DNA of 64,000 nucleotides. Origin: Haliclona indistincta (taxonomy: Eukaryota > Porifera > Demospongiae > Haplosclerida > Chalinidae). Under the pieces are notes generated by a model. It did not search any database, was not told where the DNA came from, and saw nothing but the letters and a program-made list of their open reading frames with translations. The position numbers and the translations under genes were made by a program. Positions 5,143 to 52,715 of this stretch are shown one piece after another (the stretch's first letter is position 1; each line of letters opens with the position of its first letter). The stretch covers positions 4,445,152 through 4,509,151 of the forward strand of contig OZ024784.1 of NCBI GenBank assembly GCA_964017065.1, read 5' to 3'.

Positions 5143-7002
5143 TCAATGCTCAACGAAACCAGCTAGTCCGTTCCCCGTGTCGTCGTCATCATCGTCATAA
5201 TCGTGCATTGATCTGGATGCATAACCGTAACTTGGTCTGGCACTGTTGTACATTGGATCGTCGATCTCTTCTCTGTGCCTTGACCTACCACCGAAGCTTT
5301 GTGCAGGTAGTTGGCTTTGTGGCGCTGAACGCTGGGCTTGTTGTGCAAGTCGTCGTTTGTTTGGTGGAATGACTCTATCAGGAAGGGTCTCTGGAAGGTC
5401 ATTGTCATTGAGCTTGTGATCTATGAGGAACATTGCCACTGCAAACTCATCACGATCCAGCAAGCCATCCCCATCAATGTCTGACATTGCCCAGATACGA
5501 CGAAGAACTGAGTTTGGTAATCTTGATTTTACCATTTCTTGACGTGCCACAGCACCTGTATAGTGAGAAATGAGTGGTTAGATAAAGATTCATGGCAAAA
5601 TCTTACCTGAAACCTTTCCGTCTGCATTAGGACCAAGCCTGTCAAAAATGGCATCGTATTTTACAGCATCTGGGCTGACCACCCATCCATCATCAGCTGT
5701 GCCCATGGGCTTGTTGAGATCTGTCTTCCTCGAGAAAGGATCTGTGCCTTCAGAGTAGCCAAAGACACCTCCCTTGATCCGCTTGTCCTTAACTTTCTGT
5801 TCTTCATTTGGCAGCATCTTCATCACTTTGTTGAGATCCCTAGACAGCATGATCTCAACAGCATCGATCAGAGCCATGTTGAGCTTTGGGAACCGTGTGA
5901 AATCACTATCTACCAGCTGCCCTTGCATACGCTTGATGGGTGGAAAGTCACCCACTGGAATATTCCGGCTCTTGTGTATGATGTGGAAGACATTAGCCAA
6001 GTTGTCAATCAGCTCGTCTTTCTTTGACTGCTTCCCCCATAGGGACGGCATCTCTGATCGAAGGTGAGAGAGGATGTAAGCATGGACTTTAGCTAACCGA
6101 GCACGTTTGATGAGCTCATTCAGCTTACGGACAACTGCAGTACGAGGAAGAGATTGGATATCGGCAAACAAGTCTTCTTGCTCAGCCTCAAAGAGTGATT
6201 GGTTTTCAATGAAGTTCAGCGGTTTGTCCCAGAAAGATCCAATGAACACTCGTACGACCTCTGGTGTTCCCATGACCTTCCCCAAGGACCACATGAGAGC
6301 ACCATAGACTCTCATGAGCTGCTGAGTGGTAATCATGTCGGCCTTGTTGAGCACGATTCTCATCTTTTCTTGGTTGCGCTTGATAGAGTGGATCACTCGC
6401 TGGAATTCATCCGAGATGTCGAGCTTGTGAGCATCAAAGAGGAGGACAATCATATCAGCTCGATCAGCAAACCACTCTATAACTGCTTCAAAATCATAGC
6501 CTCGATGGACTCGCTGCTTCTCTCCGGAGAGAATACCAGGTGTGTCAACCAGAGTGATGCTTTCGAGCACTGGGCTGGGCAGAAAGGATCCTTCTAGTCG
6601 ACTCAGAAACGCATTGCCGTATTTCTGTAGAGCTCTGAACTGGAAGTCAGGATTCACTGCTAGGGCGTTCCCTGGAGTACTTTGCTCGTGTTCTCCGTGC
6701 ATAATAGCTACGAAACGATCGGTAGTGGGCTCTGGACCGATACGTATGCCTGGGAAATCCCGTTCTAGAAGATACCGAATGAACGTGGTCTTCCCTGTAG
6801 AATACTGACCGATCAGTAGCACCATAGGTTTGGCGTTGAAGTCTCCTTCGTTGAGCAGAGGAGAGTGAAATTCTCCGTACTTGTACTCTCGCTCTAGCGG
6901 GAGGAGTTTCTGGCGGTACATGTCTTTCAGGCCCTCCAGCACAGACTGGTACGTGGCTGTTTGTTCCTGACGCTTGGCATCTTTGCGTAGCCAGGAGAAC
7001 AT
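5143..7002 (-). CDS. EHD1: EHD-family dynamin-like ATPase (EH-domain containing)
   Basis: Two exons (7002-5607, 5555-5143) encode 602 residues. From about residue 65 comes the P-loop GQYSTGKTT, then DTPGILSGEKQR, the LNKADMITTQQLMRVYGALMW block and the helical region. A C-terminal EH domain contains the EF-hand loop DIDGDGLLDRDEF near residue 493. EHD proteins form rings on endosomal tubules and bind NPF-motif partners through the EH domain. I chose ATG 7002 because MFSW matches the family start; 34 upstream codons are unlike any EHD. About 70 residues beyond the EH domain form a disordered tail with FGGR and a run of aspartates, longer than in vertebrate EHD1-4. Which vertebrate paralogue is closest cannot be told by eye; a single pre-duplication EHD is likely. 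Confidence 0.95.
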
Positions 7003-7195
7003 TTTGATGGTGGCTTGGTAAAGTAGATTGTGTAGAAGGTCCCTTAAATCGAGCCTCAAATGATGATGGCGCCACTCCCAGCTGAAGATCAGAGCTCGTG
7101 ACAAAAAGAACCCAGACTAAGCCACGCCTTAACCTTACTTACACGTGCGCACGTGATTATTGGCGGCTGGAAGAAGGCGAATTTCTTCAGAAAAA
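7003..7195. promoter_or_regulatory. Shared divergent promoter of EHD and gamma-tubulin, with a double E-box palindrome
   Basis: The interval between two opposed start codons contains CACGTGCGCACGTG at 7142-7155. This is a perfect 14-bp palindrome made of two CACGTG E-boxes two bases apart. It is followed by ATTGG at 7159-7163, an inverted CCAAT box. In other animals CACGTG is bound by bHLH-zip factors (Myc/Max, USF, MITF), and CCAAT boxes are common in bidirectional promoters. Confidence 0.6.
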
Positions 7196-10100
7196 ATGCC
7201 CAGAGAGATCATTACAGTTCAGTTAGGACAATGTGGCAACCAAAGTAAGCTACACAGCACCGCTAGAAATTACTGTCTCTATCTCTAATATTCAGTCGGT
7301 ATGGAGTTCTGGAAGCAGCTCTGTGCTGAGCATGCCATCAGTCCAGGTATATTGTTGCCTAACACACGTATACGTCTCTCATATATTCTTCAGAGGGGAT
7401 ACTGCAAGATGCAGCAGTGGAGGGTATTGATCGTAAAGATGTGTTCTTTTATCAAGCAGACGACGAGCACTACATACCAAGAGCAGTTCTACTGGATCTA
7501 GAGCCCCGTGTGATACAAGGCATACTGAACTCTCCCTACGCCAAACTATACAATCCTGAGAACATATACATATCAGAGGATGGTGGTGGTGCTGGCAATA
7601 ACTGGGGAAGTGGCTTCTCTCAAGTAAGCAACATATACACTCCAGTCTCGACCAGTCATGTCTGCACATTTGTTTTGTTCATCAGGCCGACAGATTGAGT
7701 GAGTCTGTATTTGATATTTTGGACAGAGAAGCAGACAACAGTGATAGTCTTGAGGTGGGTAGCTGTCTGCATATGTGCATCAAACAGTCTTTCCTGGCGG
7801 TAGGGGTTTGTGCTGTGTCACTCCATTGCTGGAGGGACTGGATCAGGAATGGGCTCATATGTACTGGAGCGGCTAGGGGACAGGTACTTATGAAATGCAA
7901 CAGCACGTTGGTTTTATCTGTGGTTTAGATATCCAAAAGCTCTTATTCAGACATATTCAGTTTTTCCTAATCTGGTATGGTCTAGCATGTTTGTTTTGAC
8001 GGTTCCTTCATTCCACTCTCTTTCCTTGTTCATTCATTCATTCACTTGCTTCCTCCTCAATCAGGGGAGTCTTGGTGATGTGGTGGTTCAGCCGTACAAC
8101 TCAGTGCTCACACTCAAGAGACTCAGTCTTCATGCTGATTCAGTGGTGAGTGTATATCATTAAATAAGAGTTGATCCAAGTGTTTCACACACTGGCTCTT
8201 CTAGGTGATATTAGATAACACTGCTCTCAATCGTATTGCAGCTGAGAGGCTTGGCATAGCCACTCCCACATTCTCACAAGTCAATCAGTTGGTAAGTTCA
8301 GACAGTTTGGAAATTAAATCCAATAATTCTAGTGCCAATAAGTTTAAACTCTTCTATTTCTGTGAAGTTGTACTTGCGTTGTGTTATTTTCTCTGCTAGG
8401 TATCCACCATAATGGCTGCCAGCACTACAACTCTTCGTTATCCAGGCTACATGAACAATGACCTGATTGGTTTGATTGCCTCTCTCATTCCAACCCCTCA
8501 ACTTCACTTCCTCATGACTGGCTACACTCCACTCACAACAGACACACAAGTCAGCACTGACTATCAACAAATTCATCATGTTGGTTGTGTTGCTTTAGGT
8601 AGCAAGTGTGCGTAAAACAACAGTACTGGATGTCATGAGAAGATTGCTACAAGTGAGATTTATCTTTTAGCACAAGTTATTTCAATTTCTCTCTCTCTCT
8701 CTCAGCCTCAAAACATCATGGTGTCCACACCAAGAGAGCGTCGTGATGACATTAAACACTGCTATATTTCCATTCTCAACATCATCCAAGGAGAGGTTGA
8801 TCCCACACAAGTCCACAAGAGTCTTCAGCGTATTCGAGAGAGAAAACTGGCTCAGTTCATACCATGGGGTCCAGCAAGTATTCAGGTGATTTGTCTGTTA
8901 GTGAGTTGTGCAGTTCCTCCATGTGTTGTTGCAGGTTGCTCTCTCACGTAGACCTCCTCACATACAGTCAGCTCATCGTGTCAGTGGTCTCATGTTAGCC
9001 AACCATACAAGCATATCAACAGTGAGTATTTTAGATGAAATGGCAAATCGACAAGGTGCACACAGAGCAGTAGACAAGTCGCCAAAAGAAACACTTGTGA
9101 TATTGCACACATTACTTTGACTAAATATATCCAGTCAAAGCATAGACTGTACTCCGTTCAAATAGTGATAAGGTGTGGTACCAGAGAGAGCAATGACGAG
9201 GTGCACAAAGCAACAAAGTTGATCGAGTGTAGTTGTGTTGCAGCAAGATTTTGTTTTAGTCAACAAAAGATGGATTTATTTTCAGCCAAGGTAACTCACA
9301 ATAGACAACAGGAGTTTCTTTTTCAGCGAATTATCTTTTGCTCTGTGTGACATTGCCAATTGCCTTTTCATCACATGGCAGAGTTTTATCTATAATACCA
9401 TCACAACATGTTTATACAATGTATAAGTTTTCTGTTTGTTTTTAGTTGTTCAAGAGAACATGTGAGCAGTTTGATAAATTATTTCAACGTAAAGCATTTT
9501 TGGAGCAGTTTAAAAAGTTTGAAATCTTTAGAGAAGATCCTGACCTCTCAGAGATGACAACATCCAAGTGAGTGCATGTTTAATGGGTAGGGTGAGGCTT
9601 TGTGACCTTTGACCTTCAGAGAGGCAGTGATGCAGCTGGTGGAGGAGTACAGAGCAGCGACAGGACCTGACTACATCAGCTGGGATCCTAGCAGACATCG
9701 ACCAACCACTTCCTCTGATACTGTAAGCAAGAGATACACACATACATTATAGAATGGAAAATCTTGCTTGTTAACACTGGCAAAAATTTTATAATAGCAA
9801 ATTTTGTTGCTGTAATTATGCAAGGAAAACACTGCTGTTCAGGCGGCATTTACACTACAATGATTGGATAAAATTAATTTAACACCAGTGTTTTTACTTT
9901 GACGTAGCTGGTTTTGGTAGTTTAAAATTGATACCAGTGGAAGTAAATTAGCAAATTGAATGTGAGCAATAGAGCATATCGTTTTCAGGCAAGAGCCTGC
10001 TGGAATGTACAACTAACAAGGTTTTTACAGTCTTGTTAATATTCTCTGCAAGTATGAAGGCTGAAGTCAAAAGCATGAATTTTTTGGGTGTTTACTTGTG

Positions 10101-11290: not shown

Positions 11291-12935
11291 TTACTGATCT
11301 CTGTGTCTCAGACCGCTTTTACTATCACTGCCAGCAAGCCCTCCCTGAGGGGTACTAGAGTCAACAGGTTGTCTCTCCCAATCTATCAAGTGACTGCTGT
11401 ATGGAGGAGGGGGTCCCATTCCCATGTAGTTTGGTACAGGGCTCGGAATCTCACTGCCTGCTGTACTATTGTTTTGTGCAGTAGAAGCATCATCGTCCTC
11501 GGATAATGGATCAAAGTCTATGAGTGGTGGGGCAGCCTCTGTACCAACTTCTGTTTCATGTATGGATTCAAGAGAGGTAGGACGACTGTCGGGTGGTAAA
11601 GTAAGCGAGGGATTGTCTTCTTGTTGGAAAAATGAGTTTATTGACATGAAAGAAGCTTGTGGTGGAGTGAATGTAAGAAGAGAATCCATTGGATTGTCAG
11701 CTGGATCTGCAGGAGGCAGAGAAGAGATGAATAAGAGGAGCGAGTATCCAGCCACACTCACCAAAAGGAGGCAAGGTCATTGATGGATCGATGTACTGAG
11801 GGTTATAGGGAGGTTGTCTTGAGGATGGTTGATTAGAACCATCAGGTGTTCCTCTTGGGTCTAGCTGAATATCAGCATACTCCTCTTCAGGAGGTGGACT
11901 CACTGGGGAAAGATATACAGAAGGTAGGGAAGAAGATATGTTGTGGGAACATACAGAGAACTTTTGTCCGGTGATAAAGCCGAGTGACTCTGTCAACCCA
12001 TGCTGGATATGACTGCCGTATAGCTGTGTTAGTCCTTCCTAACAGATCATAACGGATAACTGCTGGAGCAACAAGGACTGTCATTACTGGAGAGAGAGAG
12101 AAAGTTTGACTCCAAAAGTGTTTCTGCTTACCAATAATGTACAGTAATGTGGTAAATGAAATGAAGTAACCAACAACAGCAAATACTGCTCCCAGAGATC
12201 CGACTAGAATAGAAAACTGCAAGACACGCCCATAACATGATACATGCAGTAAAGTGTCAACTGACCAGAAAAGGTTGCTGTGATGACCAGTGATATAGAG
12301 CAAGCTTCAGGTAACCAAGCCACACTTGAATCTCAGCCAGTTTGAGGCACACTACTTCATAAGGGATCATCTCGTGTGGTCTGAGTGTTTAGTGCCACAT
12401 CATTCAAAGACACTGCAGCTGCATTACTTACTCGAGTACACACTGAGACATCTGGTACGCTTCACCTAATGACTTGTACTGCTCAGCTTCTCTCCTGCCT
12501 TGTCTCCAGGGCATTCGATCACGAAGCCTGGAAGCTACTGATCTATTTCCTTGGTTCACTTCCTCTACCATCTTCTTGTTGGCGGCCATCCAGAATGCAT
12601 CAGCAAGCAGCAACCAGAAGATGACATTAGCAATCAATGTCAGTAAGGTCTCTTCAGTGCTACCTATATACCTGTAGAGCGAGATAGTACTTAAACAGCA
12701 GTTACCATACTCCTCACCATAGTGCCATATGTATAGTTATCATCAAGCCTATTGATACCAAGGGTTTTCTCCACAACAACACTTGCTGTGAATATTCAAT
12801 GGCGTCTTTGAATGGACAGAAAACACGACATGTCTTTGAGTATCGATCATTTAGTCGCCGTATGAATTCTTCTTGTTGCTGTTGTTGCTGCAGTAGCAGC
12901 TGACGCTGCCTGTGTCTCTCCTGCAGATCAGACAT
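11291..12935 (-). CDS. RETREG/FAM134-like reticulon-homology ER-phagy receptor
   Basis: Seven exons (12935-12718, 12671-12432, 12380-12266, 12216-12132, 12086-11955, 11902-11762, 11706-11291) encode 448 residues. After a Gln-rich start, two hydrophobic hairpins are separated by a charged linker: residues about 54-110 (VLLWRKPLVS... VIFWLLLADAFW) and about 180-225 (FSILVGSLGAVFAVVGYFIS). This is the reticulon-homology layout of FAM134, including the conserved segment before hairpin 2 (LAEIQVWLGYL, compare LAESW in FAM134B). The long tail is disordered and acidic. It contains IDFDPLSEDDD at residues 373-383, a good LC3-interacting motif (F375-x-x-L378), and PPPPY, a WW-binding motif. Known relatives curve ER membrane and link it to autophagosomes. 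ARL6IP1 shares the hairpins but is far shorter and lacks this tail. Confidence 0.75.
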
Positions 12936-13097
12936 GTTTTGAAGTGGGCGGATCGCGGACTTACTAGCTATAGTCCCACGCCCTCATACTGACGTCACGT
13001 CTATAAAACGCGCGCGCTGTGCGTACAGTACAGTGCATTATGCAGTTCAAACACGAGTACTTGTAGAAGTTTCAGCAAACACTTGCTGTTTGCAAAA
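12936..13097. promoter_or_regulatory. Shared divergent promoter with CRE and TATA box
   Basis: The 162 bp between opposed start codons contain the full palindromic CRE TGACGTCA (12990-12997). A TATAAAA (13002-13008) is oriented for the + strand gene, about 90 bp before its ATG. A GC-rich CGCGCGC follows. Confidence 0.6.
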
Positions 13098-15125
13098 ATG
13101 ACAGAGTCGGAGTATTCGCTGTCTACTATCAAAAACTACTTGAAGGGAGTAAGTAACAGTTCTGTAATGTGATGCATTGCATTGTGTGTCAATACTGCAG
13201 TATCAACATCCTAATTTGGCTGCTAATGATGTGCACAAAGCCATCTCTATGTTCACTACATTGAGACCGGCTATTGAGCGAATTTGTGAGTAAATAGCAC
13301 TGTACATGTACATTTATTTATTCACAATTATATCCAAAGCACATGAGTCTAAATCTGGAGAATCTCAAGTTCTGTTTCAGTTAAAAGGCACAGTAAAGCT
13401 GTGTCTCATCGGTGAACATAATGTCTTCAATAGTTCACACAATACTATTCTATAACTACAGAGGGATCCTGTGATCTTCCTGTTGTTATTTGGCTACGCA
13501 GACCTCATCCTGATTCTCGACCTATTGTCTATATCAAGCAGTCTTCAACTGTTACAGTCAACCCATCCGGGTTTGTTGACACACGAGGGAAACTCAGCCT
13601 TCCTTATTTAGAAAACTGGAATAAGGTACATGACTACATGTGTATATTTTATAATTGAATTGTTGTATTCTAATCTTGCCCTCCCTATAAGAAGAAATCT
13701 GATATCACAACTTTAGTGAAAGAAATCATTCTCACATTTTCTAAGATCGTTCCAGCCCAGCTGAAAGATCACAGATCTTCTACATCGTCTCCTCCACCAA
13801 CTCATTCAACACAACCCTCTTTTACACTCTCTCCACAAACTTCTACTCCGCCTTCTACAACTCACACGTCTTTTGATGCAAACTATCAAGCACAACCCAT
13901 GGTTACTACGCCGCCTTATAGAGGGTACAATCTTCCCTCTCAAGCACCCCCACTGGCATATCAGGGCTACTATCAGCCACCTCAACAACCTTATTCTCCA
14001 TACAATCCTCCTCTTCCTAGATATCCACCTGTTAGTATGAGTATTGCTCCATCTTACCCTCCACCGTCCTATTTACCTTCTCAACAAGTTCAATCACTGG
14101 AAGAAGAAGTCTCACAGTTGAAAGAGAAGCTCAAGGATAGAAATAGAGAGATTGAAGACCTCAAGAAGAAGCTAACAGAGGCAGAGCATCACACTGCAGT
14201 AGCTCTTATCAAGAAAACAGAAGATTCTGAGAGGTTAGAAGAAGAGTGGAAGAAGAAGCTTGAAGACGTTACCAGTTCTCTCAACTCTGCATTGAAGATG
14301 AATGATGCAAATAGTGCAGATGATGTAAGCTTCTGGGAAGTGGACAGGACAGAGGTGGAATCGACACCTACTGTCATTGGTGAAGGAGCATGGGGGAAGG
14401 TGATTGTAGGTTGGTTCAGGGGTCAAAAGGTCGCTTTAAAACAAATGCACCAGTTGATTGTCTCTTCAAACACAATTACTCTAATCCGTCGAGAGATTCT
14501 TCTGATGGCTAGGGTCCGCCATCCTAACCTCCTCCTCTTTATTGCAGCTGTTCTCGACCATCCAGGTGGACCGATTATCATTACAGAGCTATTAGATATG
14601 TCACTGAGAACTGCATACACAAAAGGCAAGCTTACTAGCAATCCAGCTCGCCTGTCTATCATGAGAGATGCTGCATCAGGACTTAACTATCTACATCTTC
14701 AAAAGATACCAGTTATCCACAGAGATATCAGCAGTGGCAATGTGCTTCTTGAGGTAATGCCTAATAACAATTGGAAAGGAAAGATTTCTGATTTTGGATC
14801 AGCAAATGTTGCCCAGATGGCCATGACTCCAGGCCCAGGTGCCTTGGCATACGCAGCTCCTGAGGTCTATCGAGAAGCTCGTGAGTATCAAACAACAAAA
14901 ATAGATGTCTACAGCTATGGTGTGTTGTTCTGTGAGGTACTCAATAATCAGTTTCCATTCCAAGATATATTTCCCACTATGCTGGAGAAAGTGCGTGAAC
15001 AATGGGCAATGATGCATGAAATGATACTGTCCTGTACTGCTAAGAACCCAGCAGATCGTCCTACAATGTCAGACATTGTTGGCACTCTTAATAGTAAGTT
15101 TTTCAAGAAGAACAGATACTGTTAG
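13098..15125 (+). CDS. TSG101-like UEV domain fused to a TKL protein kinase
   Basis: Five exons (13098-13148, 13201-13285, 13340-13411, 13462-13625, 13692-15125) give 601 residues. Residues about 15-145 read as an inactive-E2 UEV domain (LKGTV, LPVVIWL, VNPSGFVDTRGKLSLPYLENW), matching TSG101 segment by segment. A Pro/Tyr-rich linker (about 150-255) and a coiled coil (about 257-328) copy the TSG101 order, but a kinase replaces the steadiness box. Kinase landmarks: glycine loop GEGAWG (354-359), VALK (K374), helix-C E392, HRDISSGN (from 467), DFG (491-493), APE (513-515). All catalytic residues are present, so activity is predicted. TSG101 Y63 and Y68, which bind PTAP, align with Leu and Cys here. 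The exon 3 acceptor (aaag) has a weak pyrimidine tract. Substrate and pathway are unknown. Confidence 0.85.
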
Positions 15126-16688: not shown

Positions 16689-19600
16689 TCAATTTATGTC
16701 AAAGTGTTCTTTAATACTTTTCACTGTGCGCTCATCCATCTCAACTTTCTCCATTGCATCAGTAAGATCACTCCATTTACAATCTCCAGTATCGAGCCAA
16801 TTTCTCAGAACAACACGAACAAATTGATCCTTGTCTTTATTGCTGTCATGCAGTCCATGAACTTTTCCTCTATCCTTCAACAGCAAGTGAGCAAAATCAA
16901 TGCACTGGGGTTCAGGATTTGATGCAATGAATCGAATAACGGGCAATGAGCTGCCATTCTTCAGCTTAAGATGTATCAGATCGCTCATTTCAGGACAGGC
17001 TATGGCTGCTGATACAACTATGATTACAAACAGCAATCAGTGTATTAGTGTATAAACTGTATTAATACCTTTTGGAACTGTACGCTCTTTTTCTTTCTGC
17101 TCCAGTTCATATGACTGAGAAGAAATGAGTTCTCTTTTTTTCTTCAGTTCATCATTTAGATCTACAATATGCTTTTGAGCAACACTAGCAACACGCTCTT
17201 TCTCTGCCTCAAGTTGCTCTATTATAGCCTCTAACTGCCTTCTCTTCTCCACCTCTGCTTCTAGAGCTGCCTCAAATTCTAATACGCATGATAACTATGC
17301 ACAGAGGATTATACAACAAGTAATGAATACCTGCAGTACTCTTAGAGGCCGATGGTAACGATGCTGGATTTCCAGACTCTAAGAGATCCGCTGTGATTTA
17401 AAATTATACATACTTACTGACATTTACCAACCGTTCTCTTCAAGGAACTTCATCACATCAACACGCTTCCTCTTCTTTGCAACATCTAGTGGAGTCAGCT
17501 GTTCCTATAGTATTATTATGGAACAGTTGCTGGTGTGCAGATATCAGATGACTCACTTTGTTCCTTCTCTTTAGTGATGCTCGTTTCTGTACCAGCAGCC
17601 TGACAGTATCAAGGTGACCATAAGCAGCAGCATTGTGTAGAGGAGTGTTGCTATCCTGCATATAAACACATAACTAGATAATTGCCCTTAGCTACATTAG
17701 GACTAGGAGCTTATAGTGTTAAGGACCGCACAATTAATAGCGCTATATAGCTGCTTGCACTTAAGTATTAATTTTATCAAAGTGTGTAGTGTGTTAGTGT
17801 GTAGCTAGCTGATCACGATGAAGGACAAACCTCATCAACAGCATCCACATCAGCTCCTGCATTAAGGAGACTCTCAGCTGCCTCAGCACGACCATAACTA
17901 GCAGCAAGATTAAGTGCAGATTCCTGTTAATGAAAAATTCATATCATTCATAATTATTACAAGAAAATAAAAAGATTTCTAACGAAATCAAAAGGATGTA
18001 GGGATAAAGAAATCTGCTACTGGTCCACAATGTAAACCAACAAGGAGCAAGCATGGAATGGTAACACGATTGACTTGCTAACAGACCATAGATCCCTACA
18101 TCAGTGGCTGTACATAACATTTTGACTATACTATAATTATTTTGTCACAAGCTAACCAATGCATGTCAGGTGTCAGTCAATAGCAACTAGCAGAACTGCT
18201 GTAGTCAGCCACTGATGTAGGGATCTATGGTCTGTTAGCAAGTCAATCGTGTTACCATTCCATGCTTGCTCCTTGTTGGTTTACATTGTGGACCAGTAGC
18301 AGATTTCTTTATCCCTACATCCTTTTGATTTCGTTAGAAATCTTTTTATTTTCTTGTTTGTGTCCTTTTTTCTTTTACAGTGAGTTTCAAATTTTTGGTG
18401 CAGTTCGAATTCGGCAAGATAATGTATCTCTTTTTTGTTTCCATCATTGGTTTGGTTTGCTTTTCTTGATAATTGCTTTTTAACTTGTAGCTCCTAAATG
18501 GTGAAACTAGCTCATGCATTCATGCATGCTGCAGCCTGGATGCACAGCATACGAGCCCCGCCCACTCTGGTTTAGAATTTTCTGTATGGCTGTGATACTA
18601 TCTGGCAAGCAGCAGAACGGTGATACTACACGACCTTACTCTGTGAGTTGTTCTTCGAAGACTCCAGACGCCAATATGCGCTCTCCATATGGCGATACTC
18701 TACATGTGTGTTTGGTCACGTGCGTATTACGTAATCACAATAATGGCGTCAAACACTTAGCTAGCTGACAACTGTTCGTGATCGTGAGCTCGTCAAATGT
18801 ATATCGTCGTTTCGCTAAAAAGTAAGTTCAAAAGGCACATGCCAGGAGAATTTCACGACTGTTCGTGGGTGTTTTGGCCTTGACACTGCTCGCGTAAAGG
18901 CGCTAGGCGAGTGGAAGAAAGAAGAATAAGAAAACGAAGATGACGAAAGTCGATTTTCACCGTTTCCAGGTTCGTCACTTTAGTAACAATTTCGAGCAAT
19001 CTCCTTGCTACTGTAAGATGGGGCAACGCCAGAGAGCAGATCTAAGTGTCTTTGGACGTATAAAATTTATCACCAGGCGAAATATCAGCGTTTGAACGCT
19101 AATACATTGTATGTAGCCGCCATCTTGTTTTCTCGTTCATCCCTACATAGGGAGACACTACCGTGTCTCCCTAATAAGCAGAAACAGTATAGCACAAACC
19201 TTTACTTGATCCACATTCTCCAGTAAGATTTTCTCTGCTTCAGTGTGGTTGCAGAAGACAGCAATTTCAAGGCAAGAAAAGTTCTTTTACACAAAAAATA
19301 TTATCAGATATACAACCCATGCTCTTTACATTATGTTCTTCATTTTTCCAGTTTTGATTAGCTCCCTGTGACAATGCAGTGCGAATTTGATCCTTTTTAT
19401 TTTCATAGCATGCTTCCCATAGTGTCTTATCGATAGACTGCAAATGATAATACACGATAGCAATGCTCACCATCTGTGATATTGATTACCTGTGTACGTG
19501 GTAGAGGATCTTCTTGCATAAAGCTGCGCTGTTTGGACAACTGTGTCAAAAAATAAAGAATCATACAGTGCATGCAGAGCAAAGTACATGTTATATAATA

Positions 19601-21687: not shown

Positions 21688-24600
21688 TCAATTTATGTTA
21701 AAGTGTTCTTTAATACTTTTCACTGTGTGCTCATCCATCCTAGCTTTCTCCATTGCATCAGTAAGATCACTCCATTTACAATCTTCAGTATCGAGCCAAT
21801 TTTTCAGAACAGCACGAACGAATGGATCCTTGTCTTTCTTGCTCTCATGCAGTCCCTGAACTTTTACTCTTTCCTTCAACAGCAAGTGAGCAAAATCAAT
21901 GCACTGGAATTCAGGATTTGCTGCAATGAATTCAATAATGAACAATGAGCTGCCATTCTTCAGCTTGAGATGGATTAGATCATTCATTTGAGGACAGGAT
22001 GGAATTGGAGGAACTGTAAAAAATATGTTATACTGTATACCAATAGTGGTATCTTAAGTACCTTTGGGCTTTGCTATCTCTTTGTCTCTCCGCTCCAGCT
22101 CATACGACTGAGAAGAAATGATTTCTCTCTTTTTCTCCAGTTCTTCATTTAAATCTGAAATACGCTTCTGAGCAACACTAGCAGCACGCTCTTTCTCTGC
22201 TTCAAGTTGTTCTAGTCTAGCCTCTAACTGCCTTCTCTTCTCCACCTCTGCTTCAAGAGCCATCTCAATTTCTAACAAGCATATTATTAACTATGTACAG
22301 AGGATTGTACAACAAGTATTGAATACCTGCAGTACTCTTAGAGGCTGATGATAACGATTCTGGATTTCCAGACTCTAACAGATTCACTGTGATTAAAATT
22401 ATACATACATACTGACATTTACCAACCGTTCTCTTCAAGGAACTTCGTCACATCAACACGCATCCTCTTTCTTGCAACTTCTAGTGGAGTCAGCTGATCC
22501 TATAGTATTATTATGGAACAGTTGCAGGTGTGCAGATATCAGATGACTCACTCTGTTCTTTATCTGTGGTGATGCTTGTTTCTGTACCAGCAGCTTGACA
22601 GTATCAAGGTGACCATAAGCAGCAGCATTGTGTAGAGGAGTGTTGCTATTCTGCATATAAACACAACTAGATAATTGCCCTTAGCTACATTAGGACTAAG
22701 AGCTTATAGTTTTAAGGAACGCACAATTAATAGCTTTAGCTGCTGCACTTAAGTATTAATTTTATCAAAGTGTGTAGTGTGTTAGTGTGTAGCTAGCTGA
22801 TCACGATGAAGGACAAACCTCATCAACAGCATTCACTTCAGCTCCTGCATTAAGGAGACTCTCAGCTGCCTCAGCACGGCCATAACTAGCAGCAAGATTA
22901 AGTGCAGATTCCTGTTAATGAAAAATTCATATCATTCATAAGCAGAAACAGTATAGCACAAACCTTTACTTGATCAACATTCTCCAGTAAGATTTTCTCT
23001 GCTTCAGTGTGGTTGCAGAAGACAGCAATTTCAAGGCAAGAAAAGTTCTTTTACACAAAAAATTAATAATCAAATATACAACCCATGCTCTTTACATTAT
23101 GTTCTATATTTCTCCAGTTTTGATTAGCTCCTTGTGACAATGCCGTGCGAATTTGATCCTTTTTATTTTCATAGCATGCTTCCCATAGTTTCTTATCAAT
23201 AGACTGCAAATGATAATACACGATAGCAATGCTCACCATCTGTGATATTGATTACCTGTGTACGTGGTAGAGGATCTTCTTGCATAAAGCTGTGTTGTTT
23301 GAACAACTGTGTCAAGAATCATACAGTGCATGCAGAGCAAGATACATGTTATATATACCGGTGACTTTCTATTAAGTACAGCTTGTGCCATCTGATGATT
23401 GTTTTCTTTAGCTAGCTGAACTGGAGTTTTTCCTTCCTATACATGTAAATAGAAAGTGAGCGAGACAAAATAATGCCAAGATTTTTACCTTGTTCTGTAT
23501 GTCCAGCTTAGCTCCACAGTTTACTAACAGTTGAACTATATGAACATGACCTTTTCTGGAGGCTAAGTGAAGTGGTGTATCACCATCCTATTGCACACAA
23601 TTGGATGGTGCATGCATAATCATTATCATACTATAACCTGATTGAGTTTGTTTAAGTTTCCTTCAACTACAAGTAGCTTCACAACCTCTAACTGTGCTTG
23701 ATCTGATGCAAAATGCAGCGCTGAGTTGCCGTCCTATAAAGTCAAAATGCAATTGTGCTCTATAGTTGATCAATATAATGCTTACAGGTCCATTTTGAAA
23801 GAAACCAACTTTTCCACCATGAGATGAATTCCACTGTAATAGCTGTCGAACTATTTCTTTTGAGCCACTTTTAGCAGCAGAAATTAGTGGAGAATAACCA
23901 TTCTATATTGGGGATAAAGAACACTTTGATGAGCAGATGAACTGTACTACAGCGGTTTTATTACTCCTTGCAAGGAAGATTTGAGTGTAAAGCGTCACCT
24001 TGCAGTCACTAATGTGTCAAGTCACTAGTATTTATTCACACAGTGGAGCATGATCAAAGACTTAATGGCATTTTAACGCATTAGTGCTCCACGCTTTACG
24101 GTCTACGCTCTACGGTTTACGCTTTACCCTTGCAAGAAGTAATAAAACCGCTGTAGCATAAAATATTTATGGTAAACTGTTCTGCAAAACTCTTTGACAC
24201 TATAATTTCAGCATACTTTACATTTGCCACATTTAGCAATTAAGACAATCACCAGATATAGTCATACCTCAGAAAGAGTGTCAGGTTTAGCTCCTTTGTC
24301 TAAAAGCAATTCAATCACACTTGGATGGTTGTGTATGGCAGCACAATGAAGTGCAGTGTACCCAATCTGTTAAATTATGATAGCGAAACTACATAGTATC
24401 AAATTTTTACTGAATTTTTTCCATCGATATTAGCTTTCTTGCTGATAAGGTAATGAATCATTTCAGTGTGTCCATGTTTAGCAGCCACATGCAGAGGAGT
24501 TTCATTTTCCTATATAAATAAATACATGTAGTAACAAATTAGTTGGTCAAGATCAATATGAACCTTGTTTCTTTTGTCAACATTAATTACTTTGGTAGTT

Positions 24601-25237
24601 AGTAGTAGTTTAGCAATTTCCTTCTTATCACATGCTACAGCTACATGAAGGGCACTTTCAGCCTGAGTAGATAAAACAAATCCACAAATGTGACAATGAT
24701 GTTGCAAATAACTTACAGTGCCATCAAGATCAAGTTTTGCACCGTGATCTAGGAGAAGATCAACAAGATTCCTGGAACCTTTCTCACATGCAGTCATCAG
24801 TGGTGTATATCCATCGTCCTACAGACCATGCAAAACATAAATAGTTACAAACACGTATACCGACACAAAGTACCTCTGAGATTGTGTTAGGGTCAGCATC
24901 GTGATCTAGCAGCACTTTTACAATCTGCTCATACTCACAGTAAGTTGCAACATGAAGAGGAGTGTGCAGCTGTATATGCATTGCAATATAGCTTGATAAG
25001 TTTTACCATGATTATTCTACCTCGTTCTTTTTCCAATTCAAATCAGCTCCTTTCCCGAGAGCTTCGTTTACAGCAATCAAATCGCCATCAACACAAGCCT
25101 GCCACAACTTTTGATCCTGTGGTGGGTTTAATTTTCACTTTAATCTTTGTGCATGCAGCTACACATGTAAGTTACAGCAGTTCTCGATTGCAGCTATAGC
25201 TACTTACCCATTCAATATCCCTCTCCAGCGATGCCAT
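21688..25237 (-). CDS. Ankyrin-coiled-coil-Death protein, copy B
   Basis: This is a near-identical tandem paralogue of copy A, with the same exon order, phases and intron sequences. It starts at ATG 25237 (MASLEKDI again) and stops at 21688 after the Death-domain exon (CIDFAHLLLKE, VLKNWLDT, WSDLTDAMEK). The coiled-coil exon (about 22060-22265) has EVEKRRQLEARLEQLEAEKE. All exons I compared are open and keep their splice sites, so it is probably functional. It lacks the 1.2-kb insertion of A but carries its own 204-bp MITE in another intron. Amino-acid differences from A are scattered over both ankyrins and Death domain. Confidence 0.8.
23950..24153. mobile_element. TA-flanked MITE in copy B intron
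   Basis: The 204-bp element begins CAGCGGTTTTATTAC and ends GTAATAAAACCGCTG, an exact 15-bp inverted repeat, with TA at 23948-23949 and 24154-24155. Copy A has the empty site with a single TA (near 20199), so insertion followed the A/B duplication. Confidence 0.93.
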
Positions 25238-26210: not shown

Positions 26211-29200
26211 TCAATTTATGCTAAAGTGTTCTTTAATACTTTTCACTGTGCGCTCATCCATCCTAACTTTCTCCATTGCATCAGTAAGATCACTCCATTT
26301 ACAATCTCCAGTATCGAGCCAATTTCTCAGAACAGCACGAACAAATGGATCTTTGTCTTTATTGCTGTCATGCAGTCCCTGAACTTTTCCTCTATCGTTC
26401 AACAGCAAGTGAGCAAAATCAATGCACTGGAATTCAGGATTTGATGCAATGAATTCAATAATGGACAATGAGCTGCCATTCTTCAGCTTGAGATGGATCA
26501 GATCATTCATTTCAGGACAGGATGGAATTGGAGGAACTGTAAAAAAGTAAGTTATACTGTATACCAATAGTGGTATCTTAAGTACCTTTGGGCTTTTTGT
26601 CTCTCTGCTCCAGTTCATATGACTGAGAAGAAATGAGTTCTCTCTTTTTCTCCAGTTCATCATTTAGATCTGAAATACGCTTCTGAGCAACATTAGCAAC
26701 ACGCTCTTTCTCTGCCTCAAGTTGCTCTAGTCTAGCCTCTAACTGCCTTCTCTTCTCTACCTCTGCTTCAAGAGCCATCTCAATTTCTAACAAGCATAAT
26801 TTTTATTAACTATGTACAGAGGATTCTACAACAAGAAATGAATACCTGCAGTACTCTTAGAGGCTGATGGTAACGATGCTGGATTTCCAGACTCTAAGAG
26901 ATTAATTGTATTAAAATTATACATACTTTACATTTACCAACCGTTCTCTTCAAGGAACTTCGTCACATCAACACGCATCCTCTTCCTTGCAACTTCTAGT
27001 GGAGTCAGCTGTTCCTATAGTATTATTATGGAACAGTTGCAGGTGTGCAGATATCAGATGACTCACTCTGTTCCTTCTCTTTAGTGATGCTCGTTTCTGT
27101 ATCAGCAGCTTGACAGTATCAAGGTGACCATAAGCAGCAGCATTGTGTAGAGGAGTGTTGCTAGCCTGCATATAACACATGAAATAGATACTTGTCCCTT
27201 TAAGCTACATCAGGAATTAGCCAAGGAACTTAAAACTTCCGATAGCACAACGTTAATATTGTTTTTCAATAGGTCTTTACATCAATTCTGCTGCTCAGCA
27301 TAAGATTGCAAAAGGGCTTGTTACATGCATCATGATGCATGTACAGCAAGAGTAAGATGCTAGTGTATAGCTAGCATGAAAGACAAACCTCATCAACGGC
27401 ATCCACATCAGCTCCTGCACTAATGAGACTCTCAGCTGCCTCAGCACGACCATAACTAGCAGCAAGATGAAGTGCAGATTCCTGTATTACAAGAAGCAGA
27501 CTATCTACAAAGCTACAGTAACACACACCTTTACTTGTTCCACATTTTCCAGTAATATTTTCTCTACTCCAGTGTGGTTCCAGTAGACAGCAATATCAAG
27601 ACAAGAGAAATTCTTGAACACAATAGAAATCATAATTACATGAAATAATATATCTCAAGCTTACATTGTGTTCTCTATTTTTCCAGTTTGGATTGGCACC
27701 TTTTGATAAAATCTTGCGAATTTGATCTTCTCTGTTGTCATAGCATGCTTTCCATAATGCCTCATCATTGGACTGCAAATGAAACATACAGTAAAGATGC
27801 TGACTCATTCATAATGTGTTATGCATGTCATTGCGGTATAAGGAAAGAAGACTAGGTAAAGTTTGCTGCCATGTAGATGCTTTTGATTATGAAAAATGAA
27901 GTTGCTATGTGATTTTTCTATTACAATTATATGTGCAGTCAAAATCTGGAAGAGAGGGTTCATATCTATAATTATAAAACTTACTAACCACATTTTTTGA
28001 TAGATTTGCATATTACAAAGTTTACCTAATTTCCTGCTTTGCAGTAAAAAATTTGTTACCTCTGGCTCTGGCTGAGGGTCTTCTTGTTTAAAGCTGGGTT
28101 GTCTAGACAACTGCATCATGATTAAGAATTATTTTTAACAGCGTAGAGGAAAGGTATACTCGTTATAAATACCTGTGACTTTCTAACAAGTACAGATCTT
28201 GCCATTTGATGATTATTCTCTTTAGCTAACTGAACTGGAGTTTTTCCTTCCTAAAAAAATGATGGCATGCTGTTAGAACATCATGGTCTGTTATTCTAGA
28301 AATTGTTTGTTATTTGCCACATCTTATGTACATATTTTACACTGAAGAATAATTATGTATGGTACTCCAATACAGTTTATTGATAGTTTTACCTTGTTTG
28401 GTATGCTCTGCTTAGCTCCAAATTTCACTAATGTTTGAATTACGTGAACATGACCTCTTCTGGATGCTAAGTGTAGTGGTGTATCACCATCCTGTTAAGC
28501 AAATAAATTTATTAGACTAGCTTACTGGACCCCCTCCCGGCTCTCCCACTGAGCGAGAGAGACTGGGAAGAGTCTTAGCAAGCTAGACTAGACAACACAA
28601 ATTATTAACCTGATTGAGTTTGTCCAAGTTCCCTTCAACTACAAGTAGCTTCACAACCTCTAGCTGTGCTTGATCTGATGCAAAATGCAGCGCTGAGTTG
28701 CCATCCTACCAAAGTGATAACACATCATTGTGTCAATTTTTAGCTTTGTGCTTACCGGTCCATTTTGAGACAAATTAATTTTTTGACCATGAGGTGATGA
28801 CCACTGTATCAGTTGTTGAACTATTTCTCTTGAGCCACTCTTAGCAGCAGAGATTAGCGGAGAAAAGTCATTCTACAAAAAGTGGTACATGTAGTAGTGA
28901 AATGCAGTGGTAGTTATAATGATCAACTAATGAGGGCAATACTGAAACATGGAACAAAGTATTGGAGCACACAGAATTATTTAGGAAATACTCTACAGCA
29001 TAGTCATGGGAGACTCATGAGAATGCATAGTGAGTAATTGTTACACAGATCAGAGTTCTATTATTACGCATGCAGTGTCTTGTCTACTCATGTGTAACTA
29101 TGTGAGTATACCTTGGAAAGAGTATCTGGATCAGCTCCCTTATTTAATAGCAGTTCAACAACATCTGGATGGTTGTGTATGGCAGCATAATGAAGTGAAG

Positions 29201-33747: not shown

Positions 33748-36638
33748 TATGTAAATGAGTGAGTGGGCAAGTAAGTGAGTTGTGAGCATGTGTGATACTG
33801 CAGTGCATACTAACCAAACTGAGGTACATATCCGGTCACTGTTGTGTATCGGAAACACGGCACTATTTGAAAGCTGGAGAAAGATACAAATAATAGTATC
33901 AAAATAGGAAAGATAAAGAAACACATTATGTCAGAGACTCAGAGTGCCTACCATGCTAAGGAGACGCCATTCACTGTACAATTCCTATCAGCTGAATTGA
34001 TGGTGATGTTCTCCTCCATGAAGCTTGGTATGACAGTCACCATAGGAGCAGACCTGGTGAGAAAGAGTCACAACCAGGTAAGACAGTTACTAATCAAAGA
34101 GTACCTGATGCTGGTGACTAGACCTCCGCCACTTGAACCAACAGTGATGTCTGGGAAGCATAGTAAGATTTGTTCTCATAAAGTGCAAAATGAAGCTCAC
34201 CAGCATATCCATTGTTGTCTAAGTCAAGTCCGCCTGCAAGTGAGTATCCAAATCCACTGTTGTCAGGATATGAGGTGGGAGGTCTAATAACCTGCAGAGA
34301 ATATTACAATGTGACAATAGTTATTTTCTAACAAATTCTACCTGATATCCGTCCAACATGAGACCACTCTGGGTCCCTCTGAAAATAAACACTGCTCCAT
34401 TGTCTCTGAAGGGGGCTCCAACCGCAATGTCGTCAAATCCATCTCGATCAGTGTCACCAATGTTTTCCACACTCAGACCAAACCACGCCCTCTGTTGCCC
34501 TGGTAGCCTGAATTCCTGAGTGAGATTAAGCTGGGGAAAGAGATTAGATAAATTTGTTGGAGACAAGTAAAAAGAGTATTCTAGTATGGTTAAGCTTACT
34601 GGTGCAGCATTGTCCCCTGTATGTAGATAAACAAGAATGGCTCCCCTGTCTCTATTGCATAATGGGCAACCCACAACCACACTGTGCCGGCTGAAAGGAA
34701 GAGAGAAGGAAATTGAAAATGATGCTGTAAATATTATTGATTACCCATTTGCATTTTTGAAATCAATCACTGCAAAGTCAATTCCGAAATACGTGTCAGC
34801 CTGGGAAAGAGACAAAGCATTTTATGAAAAACATGGAAGAAGATTCATTTTACCCCGCCTGGTCCAGTGAGCCTTTGAATAGACAGAAATGATCCAGGCG
34901 CAGAGTTTGGAGTATTTAGAATTGTAATCTAACAAAAGAAAGGGAGATAAAACTAGAACAAAAAGAATTAAGAGAACACACCGTTCCTTGATGGTCGGCT
35001 GCTCGAGGGGCACTAACAATAACCTCTTCAAACGATCTTCCTGTGAAGTTACCAGTTTCGATATGATAACCTAATGAGACGGAAGAGGATAAAGACAGCT
35101 ATCTAGTGAGAGAAGACCTCCTTACCCAAGTACTCATCAACATTGAGACCAGACTGGGACGTAAAAGTATATTGGTCAGTGTAGGGATTTAGTTGACCAT
35201 ATCTAATCACACCAGTGGCTACCTCACCACCACGAAAATCTCCAGTACCTGATTGCGAAAAAATATTTCCAACAATGATGTTTGGTTCAGTGCCACTATC
35301 CAGCTAAAATAGTCAGAGAAGGAGCATATTAATGATTGAATAAAATTACATGACAAACCCTTCCTCTTCCAAGACCAACTCCAGAAAGAGAAAATGACGC
35401 TGTAGGAAAAATGTAATGTAGTTCCTGTGAGCACTATGTAGGCCACACATTTACTGGTGATTTATAAAACATGACAAAAAAAGATAAATTGTGTGCAAAA
35501 TTTCACACGCGCATTATTTGCAGAACAAAAACATGTTGGACAAGTAAACGAGAAAAGTCTAAACGGTGTTGTAGAAACTAAGTATTAACTTTCATACTCT
35601 GATTGAGGTACCCGTCTTCCTGAATAGCTCATTCATGCGTGACAACGTGCAATTATTAGATCGCACAAGTTTCATTTGTCCTGTACTGTATTCACGATTG
35701 TAAATTAATTTTACAAGCTCAGTATCTACTGCCAAATGTGTCTACAAAATTTCATCAAAGATTGTACTGTCCTATGAAAGAAATGTACTCACAATCAATA
35801 AACTGATAGGGTGTAGTTGAACTGTTAAAGTCTTGAGGTAAGTCTACACAACGTCCACTGGTTACTGACTCATCTGCATCACTTGTGAGCATAGTAGTCG
35901 AAAACACAAATAATGGAGCACATGCCTGAAGAGAGAGAGAGAGAGAAAAGTGAGCATGTGATTGAGAAACTAAACATACCACAACTCGATCTTCAAAGCT
36001 TCTGATGTTAAATCCCATCTTTTGACCAACATAAAATTTGTCTGCTTGCGCTACCACTTTACTTGATATTGGAAAAAGATTCATAGCTGAAGCTGAAGAG
36101 AGGAATACTCATTAAGTTTAAGTTATTAAACCAGTATATACTGTCAGTAATTAGTTAGAAGGACTGGGTGTGGCTACACACAAGAGTAATTGGTCGACTG
36201 AACTAAATGGCAATTTCCATGGTTTTTAGTCATACAGCAGTTTTATTACTTCTTGCAATGGTAAAGTGTGAACCGTACGTAGAGCGTAGACCAACACATG
36301 GATCACTAATGTGTTAAAATTCCATTAAGTCTTTGATCATGCTCTATTGTGAGTATAAATATCAGTGACTTGAAAACCGCTGTACCATGGAAATTGCTAG
36401 AACCTTAACCTCATACCAGATCCAATGGACTGATTTTCACTTGATGAGTTAATGATGGTTTTCACTTGAAACTTGTTCATGCAGAACACTACAAGTACAT
36501 TCGCTAATTTGTGCTCACTATTACGAGAGTTGAATGCTAGTTGTCTTGTGCAGTTAGCTTGATGCTGCAATGGACACTCCCATACTGATCCCTGTACAAT
36601 ACCAGCTACTGTGTCTTTTGGAGCTCCAGCAAGAACGC

Positions 36639-37804: not shown

Positions 37805-40800
37805 CTATGACGGAAATGCTGAGTTCAGTTCTCGTTTTTGTTCGTCAGTGAATCGTGCTAGAGCAGCGATGACCTTCCTGAGCTGAAACTGCTGTTTTCC
37901 CATCATGTACTGGAAGAGAACATTGCGGAAGAACTACAGAAGAGAGAGGAGAGAGTTATGACCTCTCGAATCACAACTACTATAGTACAAACTCACAGAA
38001 TACACAATGAGTGGGTTGAACATGGATATGTTGATAGAGCAATACTTGTTATTTTATTGCTAATTAAAGAAACACTGCCAATACCAGGTCTGTTGGCACA
38101 GAAGCACTGAGAAAACTCGTGCGTCGCTACTGTATATGGATAGTGTTTTCAGGTTCTACATGCATGTATTATTTTCAGGATCATTAGCTATTATGTGTAT
38201 ATAGCAGTGTTTACTACTGTAAATCTATACAGCATTGGTTTGTAGTAAACACTCAAGGTTAATCTTTGATTGATCACTTTCACAAACTTTTCATTAAGTG
38301 ACATACCAACATTTGGTCGGCTACTTCAGAGACAAGATATAGTGTCGCTTGTTAACAGACAAGGTAGTAAGTATCCTTTATAGAAAGGTGTCTGAGATCA
38401 TGAAGCTAACATGCAGTTCATAACAGATAAATATGTGTTATATGTGTTCACATGGACTAGTTACAAAGGCTCATCATGGTTACTACCAATAGACCACCAT
38501 TTCCATAGCCAGTGAGTAATTCAATAGCTATGGCAATAAGTCATGAATCCAGTATCAACTGGTTTCCTGTTATGTTGCTTCATTCCAGTTCCTTACTACA
38601 CCCATTACTTAACCCGCCACACCCATATAACTTGGCTAGCAGTGCATTATACTGTGACACAGACTAAACAAAGGGACTGTTTGAAGCACATGCAAGAGTG
38701 TGATTCCATACAAAATTCTAATGCACAAAATAAATATGATTTCATACAGTAGTACCAAGAATACACAAAATATGCATTAGGAATTAACTACATGTATTAG
38801 CTGTGTAATTAGACTACAGTAATAATGGCTTCATGAGTGAAACCTCACAATGCAGGTGGTCATGTTGTAAGTACTTGTTGTGTACAGTTGGACATGTCAT
38901 TACTAACCTCAAACTCTGCCCCATGTGGTTCCTGTTCTAATGTAATGTCTTTAGAAGGTGTATCTGGCAAAGGAGGCGCATACTGTCTGGTTGGAGTAAG
39001 AGGTGTGCTGGGGGTGGTTTGGGACTGCTGTGGGAAAAAATAAACAACTTTCATCTGTCACCTCAGTCTCACCTGCAGGTTCTTTATTTCAAGGTGAAGC
39101 TTTTCTTTCTCAGACTCACTGCTCTTCAATGCTTGTCTGTACTCACACACGATCCCTTCTAATCTAAAATGAAAGACAAACACTAGTATGTTGGCATAGT
39201 TGCCAGTGTCTAGCTTGTGTTGAACACATGTATTCACCATACACAGATTATACGTATAGTGACTGTACTGTGCACTTCCCAAGTCAACATTATGTACCTT
39301 TGTCCCAAACAACTAATGACCTTGTTTAGTACAGGGAAGGTATTACAGTTCCCACCCTCTCCCTCTTACCTTGCAATGCCTTCACGTGATGCACCAGCAG
39401 TACATGTATCTGTTGACTCTTCAAGCCTCTTCAACTCTGCTCTATGCTTTTCTTTCACATCCTCCATCTCCTTGCAGTGACTTGCCACAAGCTCTGCCTT
39501 TAACCTCTCCCAATTATTGCTAGCATGGGATCGTTCTTCTTGCTCTATTTGTTGTCTCACTGCCTCCATTTCTATCTCATGCCCGTGCTGCAACTGAACA
39601 AGCTGTTCCTCTAGTCTCTTCATTTTGTCTCCTTCAGCTAGAGCACTATCACGAGCAGCCTGGGTCTTAGCTTTTGCTGCATTTAATGCTTTTTTCATAG
39701 AGGCCATGTTAGAGGTGTATTGCTGTTCTGCAAGAGATAGTTCCTCTTGATGGGAAGAAATAAGGCCCTCACTCTTTGCAGCCAACTTAGCAGAATCTTC
39801 CATGATCTGTTGGCGTTGTTCAGCTAGGCGCTGCTCTATTTCCATCTCCTTTTCTTGCAAAGCAGCTTGATGTTCCTTTACAACTGACCTCAACTGATCT
39901 TGTGCTTCTTTCTTTACTGAGGCAATGACCTGTTCATTGTTTTCCTGGGTCTTAGACACGTGACTTTCAAGCTCAGATATTCTGACATTTCCATGTTGCT
40001 TTTCTCTGTTCCTTTCTTCTTCCATTGAAGCAAGCTGCTGCTGCAGTTGTTCAATCTGTGAGGCAAGTTCCTCGAGGCGTGTCTTCAGTGATGCTTCTCT
40101 CTCTTCACACATCTTCATTTCTTGGCTGTGATCTTCGACCAGCTTTCCTCTCTCTGTGTTCATTGTCCACAGCATCTCCTCTAGTTTAGTTCTCCACTGC
40201 TCCTCTGTCCTGTTTTGTTTTTTCTCAGCTGATCTTAGTTTCTTCTGGAGAGCATTCACCTCCACAAACTGCTGATCATCAAGTGCAGACAACTTTTGCT
40301 CAACCTCAGCTTTGGCAGCTTGTAAATCAGAAACTTCGGACCTTAATTCTTCTTCTCTTTCACTACTTTGTTGAGTAAATTTTTCGTGCTGAAGTTGATG
40401 TTCCTGTAGATTTCTCTCAAGAGATTCTATCTGATGCAACAAGGATTCCACCTTCTCTGCAAGTTCATCTCTCTCTTGAGTAATGGATGACACCTGCTGC
40501 TTGGTCTCAGACAGGTTGGACTGTAGTCTGCTAGCCTCTTCCTCTGATGCTCTTAGCTGTGCTTTGTGTTTTTCCTCAATCATTGTTTTACTGGCTTGTA
40601 ATCGAGTAACTTCAAGTTGAGCGGATCGAAGTTGTTTTCGTAAGTCATCTTTTTCGGTTGCAATAGAATGAAGGGTTTGCTCAGATTGTTTCTGTGCTTC
40701 CAAAGCATCTACGGCAGTCTTTCTCTTTGTCTCTGCCTCTTCAAGCTGTGCTGTTAGCTGTTTCTTCAAAGCAGCTAGTCTAGTTTCTGCTCTTTTCTTG

Positions 40801-52221: not shown

Positions 52222-52715
52222 GGTAGTTTAAAGTAAGAAGACTTTGCGATGCTCGAAGGTGGGAAGTTTTTAGCAATTTAGCGTGAAGGTATCCAAGATA
52301 CGTAGTAGTGTTAACTAAGGACGAATTAACAGTATGCTGTTGACTTCAACTGCAGGACTTAAATATGGAAAACAGTCCAAAAGTTTTCAAAATCTGCTTG
52401 GCACAAACATGCGGTTCTGACGGTGTAAATCAGCCTTTATAGTCTCGATCGATATCAAGAGGAAGTAGATACGATAACACTACGACGGAAAATTGAACAC
52501 CGCAATCACATTGTCGGCGCTTTGATCTAAGCTACTGCACGTCACGGGACGTGACGTACACTGGTGCACAATGCATGCATCGATGACTTCAGCTCGCCTC
52601 ACAGGTGCCCCAACTGACGAAAATATACAGAAATGAGTCTTACAAACATCACAACTCATGTACCATCAAAATTAATACTAACACCTAGAACTGTTCGAAA
52701 TAATACTATTGTTGT
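52222..52715. promoter_or_regulatory. p35 upstream region with palindromic CRE half-sites
   Basis: ACGTCACGGGACGTGACGT at about 52539-52557 is an inverted pair of ACGTCA-type half-sites, some 320 bp upstream of the p35 ATG. The right part holds the myosin 3' UTR. Confidence 0.45.

Follow-up and report, generated by a model that had tools for sequence, protein, structure and literature searches.

A sponge gene joining a TSG101-like UEV domain to a TKL-type kinase

Gene model and domain layout

The window analysed here, a 64,000-nucleotide stretch of Haliclona indistincta DNA (contig OZ024784.1, positions 4,445,152 to 4,509,151, assembly GCA_964017065.1), carries on its plus strand a five-exon gene that specifies a UEV domain followed by a kinase. 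All four introns have GT..AG borders, with phases 0, 1, 1 and 0, and the spliced frame stays open for 601 codons before a TAG, giving a protein of 601 aa. The acceptor of intron 4 may lie at 13692 or 13695 (a 3-nt ambiguity), and both choices keep the frame. Exon 5, of 1434 nt, is a single open exon of 477 codons that runs unbroken from the end of the UEV to the kinase. The frame and borders bear out the coordinates, the four introns and the residues given in an earlier annotation made from the letters of the DNA (the sequence-only reading). The exons and the parts of exon 5 are as follows.

13098..13148, plus strand: exon 1, with the start codon, the first residues of the UEV (1-17) and a donor in phase 0 (splice-site reading)
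13201..13285, plus strand: exon 2, 85 nt, UEV (splice-site reading)
13340..13411, plus strand: exon 3, 72 nt, UEV hairpin and beginning of the PTAP-pocket stretch, containing Leu68, the Y63 equivalent
13462..13625, plus strand: exon 4, 164 nt, UEV core, containing Cys73, the Y68 equivalent
13692..15125, plus strand: exon 5, stop included, one open frame with the last UEV helix, Pro-rich linker, coiled coil and kinase
13692..13760, plus strand: final helix of the UEV (residues 125-147), the same at 23/23 positions in P0001 and P0002
13761..14063, plus strand: Pro/Ser/Thr/Tyr/Gln-rich linker, residues 148-248, 25 Pro in 101, with one PPxY motif (PPSY, 248-251) at its end
14079..14315, plus strand: one unbroken helix predicted by AlphaFold2 from exon 5 (residues 254-332), presumably a coiled coil
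14352..15122, plus strand: TKL-type kinase domain, with GEGAWGKV at 14379, VALK at 14430, HRDISSGN at 14718, DFG at 14790 and APE at 14856

The protein is thus laid out as a UEV, a Pro-rich linker, a predicted 79-residue helix and a TKL-type kinase. The sequence-only reading had made a profile match the test of its UEV call, and Pfam returned one above cut-off (PF05743, residues 26-145, E 1.4e-24, 86.8 bits against a cut-off of 27, profile positions 3-120 of 121), together with a Pkinase match (PF00069, residues 352-587, E 1e-34, 120.6 bits, cut-off 31.7). Pfam found no steadiness box (Vps23_core) within the gene and no lactate/malate dehydrogenase domain in the protein, and an NCBIfam scan gave nothing above cut-off, only rows below it. 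Phage_scaffold, PUMA_CC and similar sub-cut-off Pfam rows were dismissed as coil composition. AlphaFold2, run on exon 5 alone with a 23-row alignment, produced a model of modest quality (mean pLDDT 62, pTM 0.48). In it, a 26-residue helix at the end of the UEV is followed by a linker modelled with low confidence, then by 79 residues of helix and a kinase-like fold; block pLDDT of the long helix (residues 254-332) was 72-84 over most of its length and 51 at its end.

The locus is one gene, because the last UEV helix, the linker, the coil and the kinase lie in one exon and because two open reading frames on ENA contigs of 9.3 and 10.9 kb, P0001 (388 aa, 13 member sequences) and P0002 (465 aa, one), keep this order. 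Both resemble the fusion from the exon-5 border on, and the UEV helix is identical at 23 of 23 residues in each. Over exon 5, which is the part this comparison covers, identity to the fusion was 68/96 (P0001) and 38/99 (P0002) in the linker, 74/90 in both for the coil, and 107/119 and 190/209, respectively, in the kinase (~90%). The P0002 linker and the P0001 C-terminus look frame-shifted, so the figure of 38/99 cannot be read as evolution. Exon 5 is conserved in other assemblies, and the UEV end is conserved at least as well as the kinase. Three further sequences, P0007, P0008 and P0009, cover coil and kinase only (kinase identity 199/259, 194/261 and 157/257).

A mis-spliced model or a pair of adjacent genes, the first a truncated copy of TSG101 and the second a coil-kinase gene in its own right, would find some support in P0009, a 61% relative. 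Its coil-kinase exon seems, on a protein reading, to open directly with the coil, preceded by an acceptor-like stretch. The parts can, on that example, occupy separate exons; in addition, the host kinase paralogues lack a UEV, and the genome's UEV loci are the fusion and one on contig C10 only. Against this stand the single 477-codon exon and the 23/23 helix of P0001 and P0002, on which grounds we reject two separate genes and hold this account as a whole very improbable. Divergence of the UEV from the host TSG101 (37% identity in exon 4) would also fit a functionless locus, either a recent pseudogene or an assembly chimera. With all splice sites intact, 601 codons open and a similar exon 5 in other assemblies whose kinase is ~90% identical, that explanation is scarcely credible.

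Upstream of the fusion, a minus-strand frame at 12714-13097 has a possible ATG at 12935, ~160 bases from the start of the fusion, and the two possibly share a promoter. The minus strand of the window also carries an EHD-type GTPase exon (5596-7116), an FG-GAP (integrin-alpha-like) exon (34327-34740), a CDK5 activator exon (51427-52227) and a myosin TH1 exon (53277-53600), and the plus strand a tubulin exon (7363-7695); the FG-GAP, EHD and CDK5-activator exons are consistent with animal DNA. Three similar tail exons (16692-17036, 21691-22053 and 26214-26663, minus strand) lie near an ankyrin exon (24513-24818) and are death-domain-like by eye; the two that were scanned (16692-17036 and 26214-26663) had no Pfam match at E 0.001. 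A 1685-codon open frame on the minus strand (39369-44423), coiled-coil-like by eye, had no Pfam match at the same threshold.

Descent and binding surfaces of the UEV half

In the genome (144 Mb, 46 contigs) we identified two UEV loci, the fusion and the locus on contig C10. Used as a query against the whole genome at E up to 10, exon 4 of the fusion returned these two loci and one chance-level match. The C10 gene, which we rebuilt, is the host TSG101, with both PTAP-pocket tyrosines and the steadiness box present, and no other locus in the 144-Mb genome gave an above-cut-off match to Vps23_core. That the fusion lacks a steadiness box, as had been read from the sequence, is confirmed by the absence of a Pfam match in the gene and by this sole match at C10.

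The first five exons of the host TSG101 measure 39, 85, 66, 164 and 384 nt, against 51, 85, 72, 164 and 1434 nt in the fusion. Introns 1, 3 and 4 have alignment column and phase in common in the two genes. The phase of intron 2 agrees as well, and its column matches too if a two-residue gap is set after it, a placement we chose because exon 2 has the same length (85 nt) in both. All four introns of the fusion correspond to host TSG101 introns (phases 0, 1, 1, 0), and exon 4 is 37% identical between the two genes. This agreement of four out of four introns in position and phase therefore provides strong evidence that the UEV half descends from TSG101 by DNA duplication and subsequent exon joining. 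Among PDB sequences, the UEV part matched TSG101 UEVs best (human TSG101 UEV, E 2.3e-18).

Tyr63 and Tyr68 of TSG101 are PTAP-pocket residues. We take these positions, in the numbering of the human protein, to map onto Leu68 and Cys73 of the fusion, and the alignment has Tyr at both in the host TSG101; the Leu and Cys named in the sequence-only reading were thereby recovered. The pocket stretch reads CLIEGSC in the fusion, SYRGATY in the host TSG101 and PYRGNTY in the human protein. Given Leu and Cys in place of the two tyrosines, P(T/S)AP binding by the fusion UEV would be unlikely. The vestigial E2 active site presumably falls within the aligned stretch SGFVDTRGKLSLPYL, which contains no Cys, and there is no catalytic Cys. 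The hairpin stretch of the fusion is longer than that of TSG101 and little conserved, with the Trp75 equivalent retained. According to the available text of PMC9944984, TSG101 contacts ubiquitin through hairpin residues 40-50 and close to its vestigial active site. The TSG101 residues that PMC5680296 calls C73 and W75 fit the register of our alignment.

The TSG101 ancestry of the UEV, together with a Pro-rich linker bearing a PPSY motif that P0001 also has, might point to a regulator of ESCRT, in which the UEV takes the kinase to endosomal cargo or ESCRT for phosphorylation or competes with TSG101 for ubiquitylated cargo. We consider this role unlikely, as the fusion has no steadiness box and both PTAP-pocket tyrosines are lost.

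The kinase and its coil

By sequence, the best PDB matches to the kinase among the 60 listed were TNNI3K, CTR1 and MLK1 (MAP3K9), then LRRK2 and TAK1, all of which we take to be TKL kinases; CSK, AMPK and others stood lower in the same 60. Foldseek, run on the exon-5 model, ranked TNNI3K, B-Raf and MLK1 with its zipper first, at TM-scores of 0.50-0.60 to the listed targets and rmsd 6-9. Assignment of the kinase to the TKL type is supported by these nearest solved kinases, in sequence and in Foldseek.

According to the sequence-only reading, the kinase has every catalytic landmark. This held for the G-loop (GEGAWGKV), the VALK Lys, the helix-C Glu, the HRD Asp, the Asn, the DFG Asp and the APE motif, and failed for the catalytic-loop Lys, at whose canonical position the fusion has Ser (HRDISSGN). 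We retrieved 30 host loci, namely the fusion and 29 paralogues, whose catalytic loops read HRDVSSAN in 27 and HRDVNSAN in one, with HRDISSGN in the fusion; the last, L034, is interrupted by a stop early in its kinase match. Ser or Asn in place of the catalytic-loop Lys is the rule in the host TKL family, and TNNI3K, an active kinase, has HRDLNSHN. The Ser could be taken as a sign that the UEV and coil are functional and the kinase is a pseudokinase, making the protein a catalytically dead scaffold. Retention of the VALK Lys, the helix-C Glu, the HRD Asp, the Asn and the DFG Asp, and the family rule itself, with Asn also in TNNI3K, make a dead scaffold a decidedly poor prospect, and on these residues we take the fusion kinase to be probably active.

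The genome contains 145 kinase matches, of which 59 besides the fusion score at least 236 bits at 49-63% identity. Counted by hand, 43 of these 59 close paralogues are clustered, with 28 on C7 (0.58-0.89 Mb), 10 on C8 (7.59-7.67 Mb) and five on C1 (13.27-13.54 Mb). The fusion kinase belongs to a TKL family that is much expanded in the host, and 28 of the 29 paralogues retrieved have a heptad-like stretch (by eye) in frame with the kinase. In a kinase tree of 39 rows, which carries a long-branch warning with P0009 included, the fusion clusters with P0002 (99/99) and, more widely, with P0007, P0008 and P0009 (97/98), separate from all 29 host paralogues.

The C7, C8 and C1 clusters form a big tandem expansion of TKL kinases with HRDVSSAN loops, and many of the copies have LQQDN-like heptads in variable number. 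In the relatives P0056, P0118 and P0119 a coil is flanked by two kinase-like domains, the first of which has HCNLSSRN or HRNLSSRN, not HRD, and looks like a pseudokinase.

Residues 254-332 of the coil matched P0008 (2e-16), P0007 (2e-10) and P0009 (1e-9); the best host paralogue (E 0.035) and the host TSG101 (E 0.41) were not good matches. A longer query reached host paralogues down to 4e-6 because it held kinase-adjacent residues that the paralogues share. Sequence comparison is not decisive by itself, and we consider it probable that the coil came with the kinase, not from TSG101, because coil and kinase share one exon in the fusion and in the paralogues, because the P0009 exon seems from its protein reading to begin at the coil, and because the coil of the host TSG101 sits in exons 3' of the Pro-rich one. 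The earlier claim that the protein keeps the TSG101 order is correct for the order itself and goes no further, the coil being more probably the kinase family's own.

Related architectures and a proposed role

HMM matches, exon-intron structure and orthologues all support a UEV-linker-coil-TKL fusion that is without the steadiness box and has lost the PTAP-pocket tyrosine pair. To find a UEV-kinase elsewhere, we searched proteins with residues 1-340, which gave three matches from 5592 candidates, one of them the fusion itself. With the kinase region as query, none of the best 120 of 2100 matches (3662 candidates) had PF05743, and with the UEV of the host TSG101 (103 candidates) the six matches were three UEV plus RING and three UEV plus Vps23 core proteins, none with a kinase. 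These are weak negatives, since the protein entries are mostly intron-ignoring ORFs with few named eukaryotic proteins. A viral contig search with the fusion gave no match, and the single match of the genome-contig search, a bacterial locus with 29% identity over linker and coil, was rejected as compositional. No UEV-kinase protein was found in keyword searches of the literature, within which we claim its absence, or in the available text of the calpain paper PMC3563603. The novelty proposed in the sequence-only reading survives in the proteins and papers searched, where eukaryotes are poorly covered: the UEV-TKL kinase layout is new within these searches, and its parts, like the route by which they were joined, are known.

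UEVs joined to other modules are known, in vertebrate UEVLD and protist calpains, or were seen here, in amphioxus. TNNI3K, MLK and RAF, which provide the best sequence and structure matches to the fusion kinase, carry ankyrin, SH3/zipper and RBD modules, respectively, and no UEV. The host coil-TKL kinases of C7, C8 and C1 resemble the fusion in combining a heptad-like stretch and a kinase in one frame (28/29 retrieved) and in having Ser or Asn for the catalytic-loop Lys; they differ in being without a UEV locus and in coils not recognisably like that of the fusion. TSG101/VPS23 of ESCRT-I has the N-terminal UEV, Pro-rich stretch and coil in common with the fusion, and the host TSG101 has the same four UEV introns, whereas the fusion has a C-terminal kinase and neither the steadiness box nor the PTAP-pocket tyrosine pair. 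In the host TSG101 the Pro-rich exon precedes those that encode the coil; in the fusion a single exon holds both. The amphioxus proteins P0122-P0124, one of them named TSG101 in a source, are another UEV capture. Like the fusion they join a TSG101-like UEV to a C-terminal signalling module, with no Vps23 core listed, but that module is a RING finger and not a kinase, and the UEV stretches number two (P0122 and P0124 scanned).

Unicellular eukaryotes have calpains that carry UEV and Vps23 domains, according to a table in PMC3563603, and these too combine a UEV with an unrelated enzyme, in that case a protease. In UEVLD (UEV3) of vertebrates, as in the fusion, an enzyme domain follows the UEV, and the available text of PMC2926785 describes that UEV as the product of exon joining after a duplication of TSG101, intron positions and phases being identical. 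The enzyme of UEVLD is a lactate/malate dehydrogenase, where that of the fusion is a kinase. UEVLD adjoins its donor TSG101, which for the fusion lies on another contig (C10). The UEV of UEVLD is 56% identical to that of TSG101 (accessible part of PMC12513931), compared with 37% for exon 4 of the fusion and the host gene. Four of four TSG101 introns make this a likeness of origin, not membership. Fusions of GPCRs to kinases in choanoflagellates and sponges are described in the available text of PMC12716839.

We favour, with a probability of about 0.6, the reading that the locus is one functional exon-joined gene for an oligomerising, cytoplasmic TKL signalling kinase that uses a non-PTAP UEV for targeting and is not an ESCRT-I subunit; in it, expression, activity, oligomerisation, the origin of the coil, the UEV ligand and the pathway are what we infer. 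The gene would have arisen when duplicated 5' exons of TSG101, encoding the UEV with its last helix and perhaps the Pro-rich stretch, were placed before a coil-TKL kinase gene. The coil would oligomerise the protein, allowing the kinase domains to activate each other. In RAF and MLK dimers, kinase domains activate one another. The UEV and the Pro-rich linker, with its PPxY motif, would recruit the kinase to a partner, for example a ubiquitylated protein or an E3-ligase complex, and the partner of the UEV would be other than the P(T/S)AP proteins bound by TSG101. Recognition of ubiquitin or of trafficking signals may in this way be coupled to phosphorylation.

As a more tentative proposal, the fusion could be a conserved, lineage-specific signalling protein whose TSG101-derived domain senses ubiquitin or an E3 and gates the TKL kinase directly, so that a ubiquitin or trafficking signal becomes phosphorylation within one polypeptide. 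It would then be a further independent capture of the TSG101 UEV by an enzyme beside UEVLD. TSG101 UEV exons captured by an unrelated enzyme follow the route published for UEVLD, here with a kinase whose TKL family has expanded greatly. The ordinary TSG101 of the host provides a built-in control for what the captured UEV has lost, including both PTAP-pocket tyrosines, and for what it has retained. Should the UEV still recognise ubiquitin or an E3, the protein would form a natural connection between ubiquitin and phosphorylation in a single chain.
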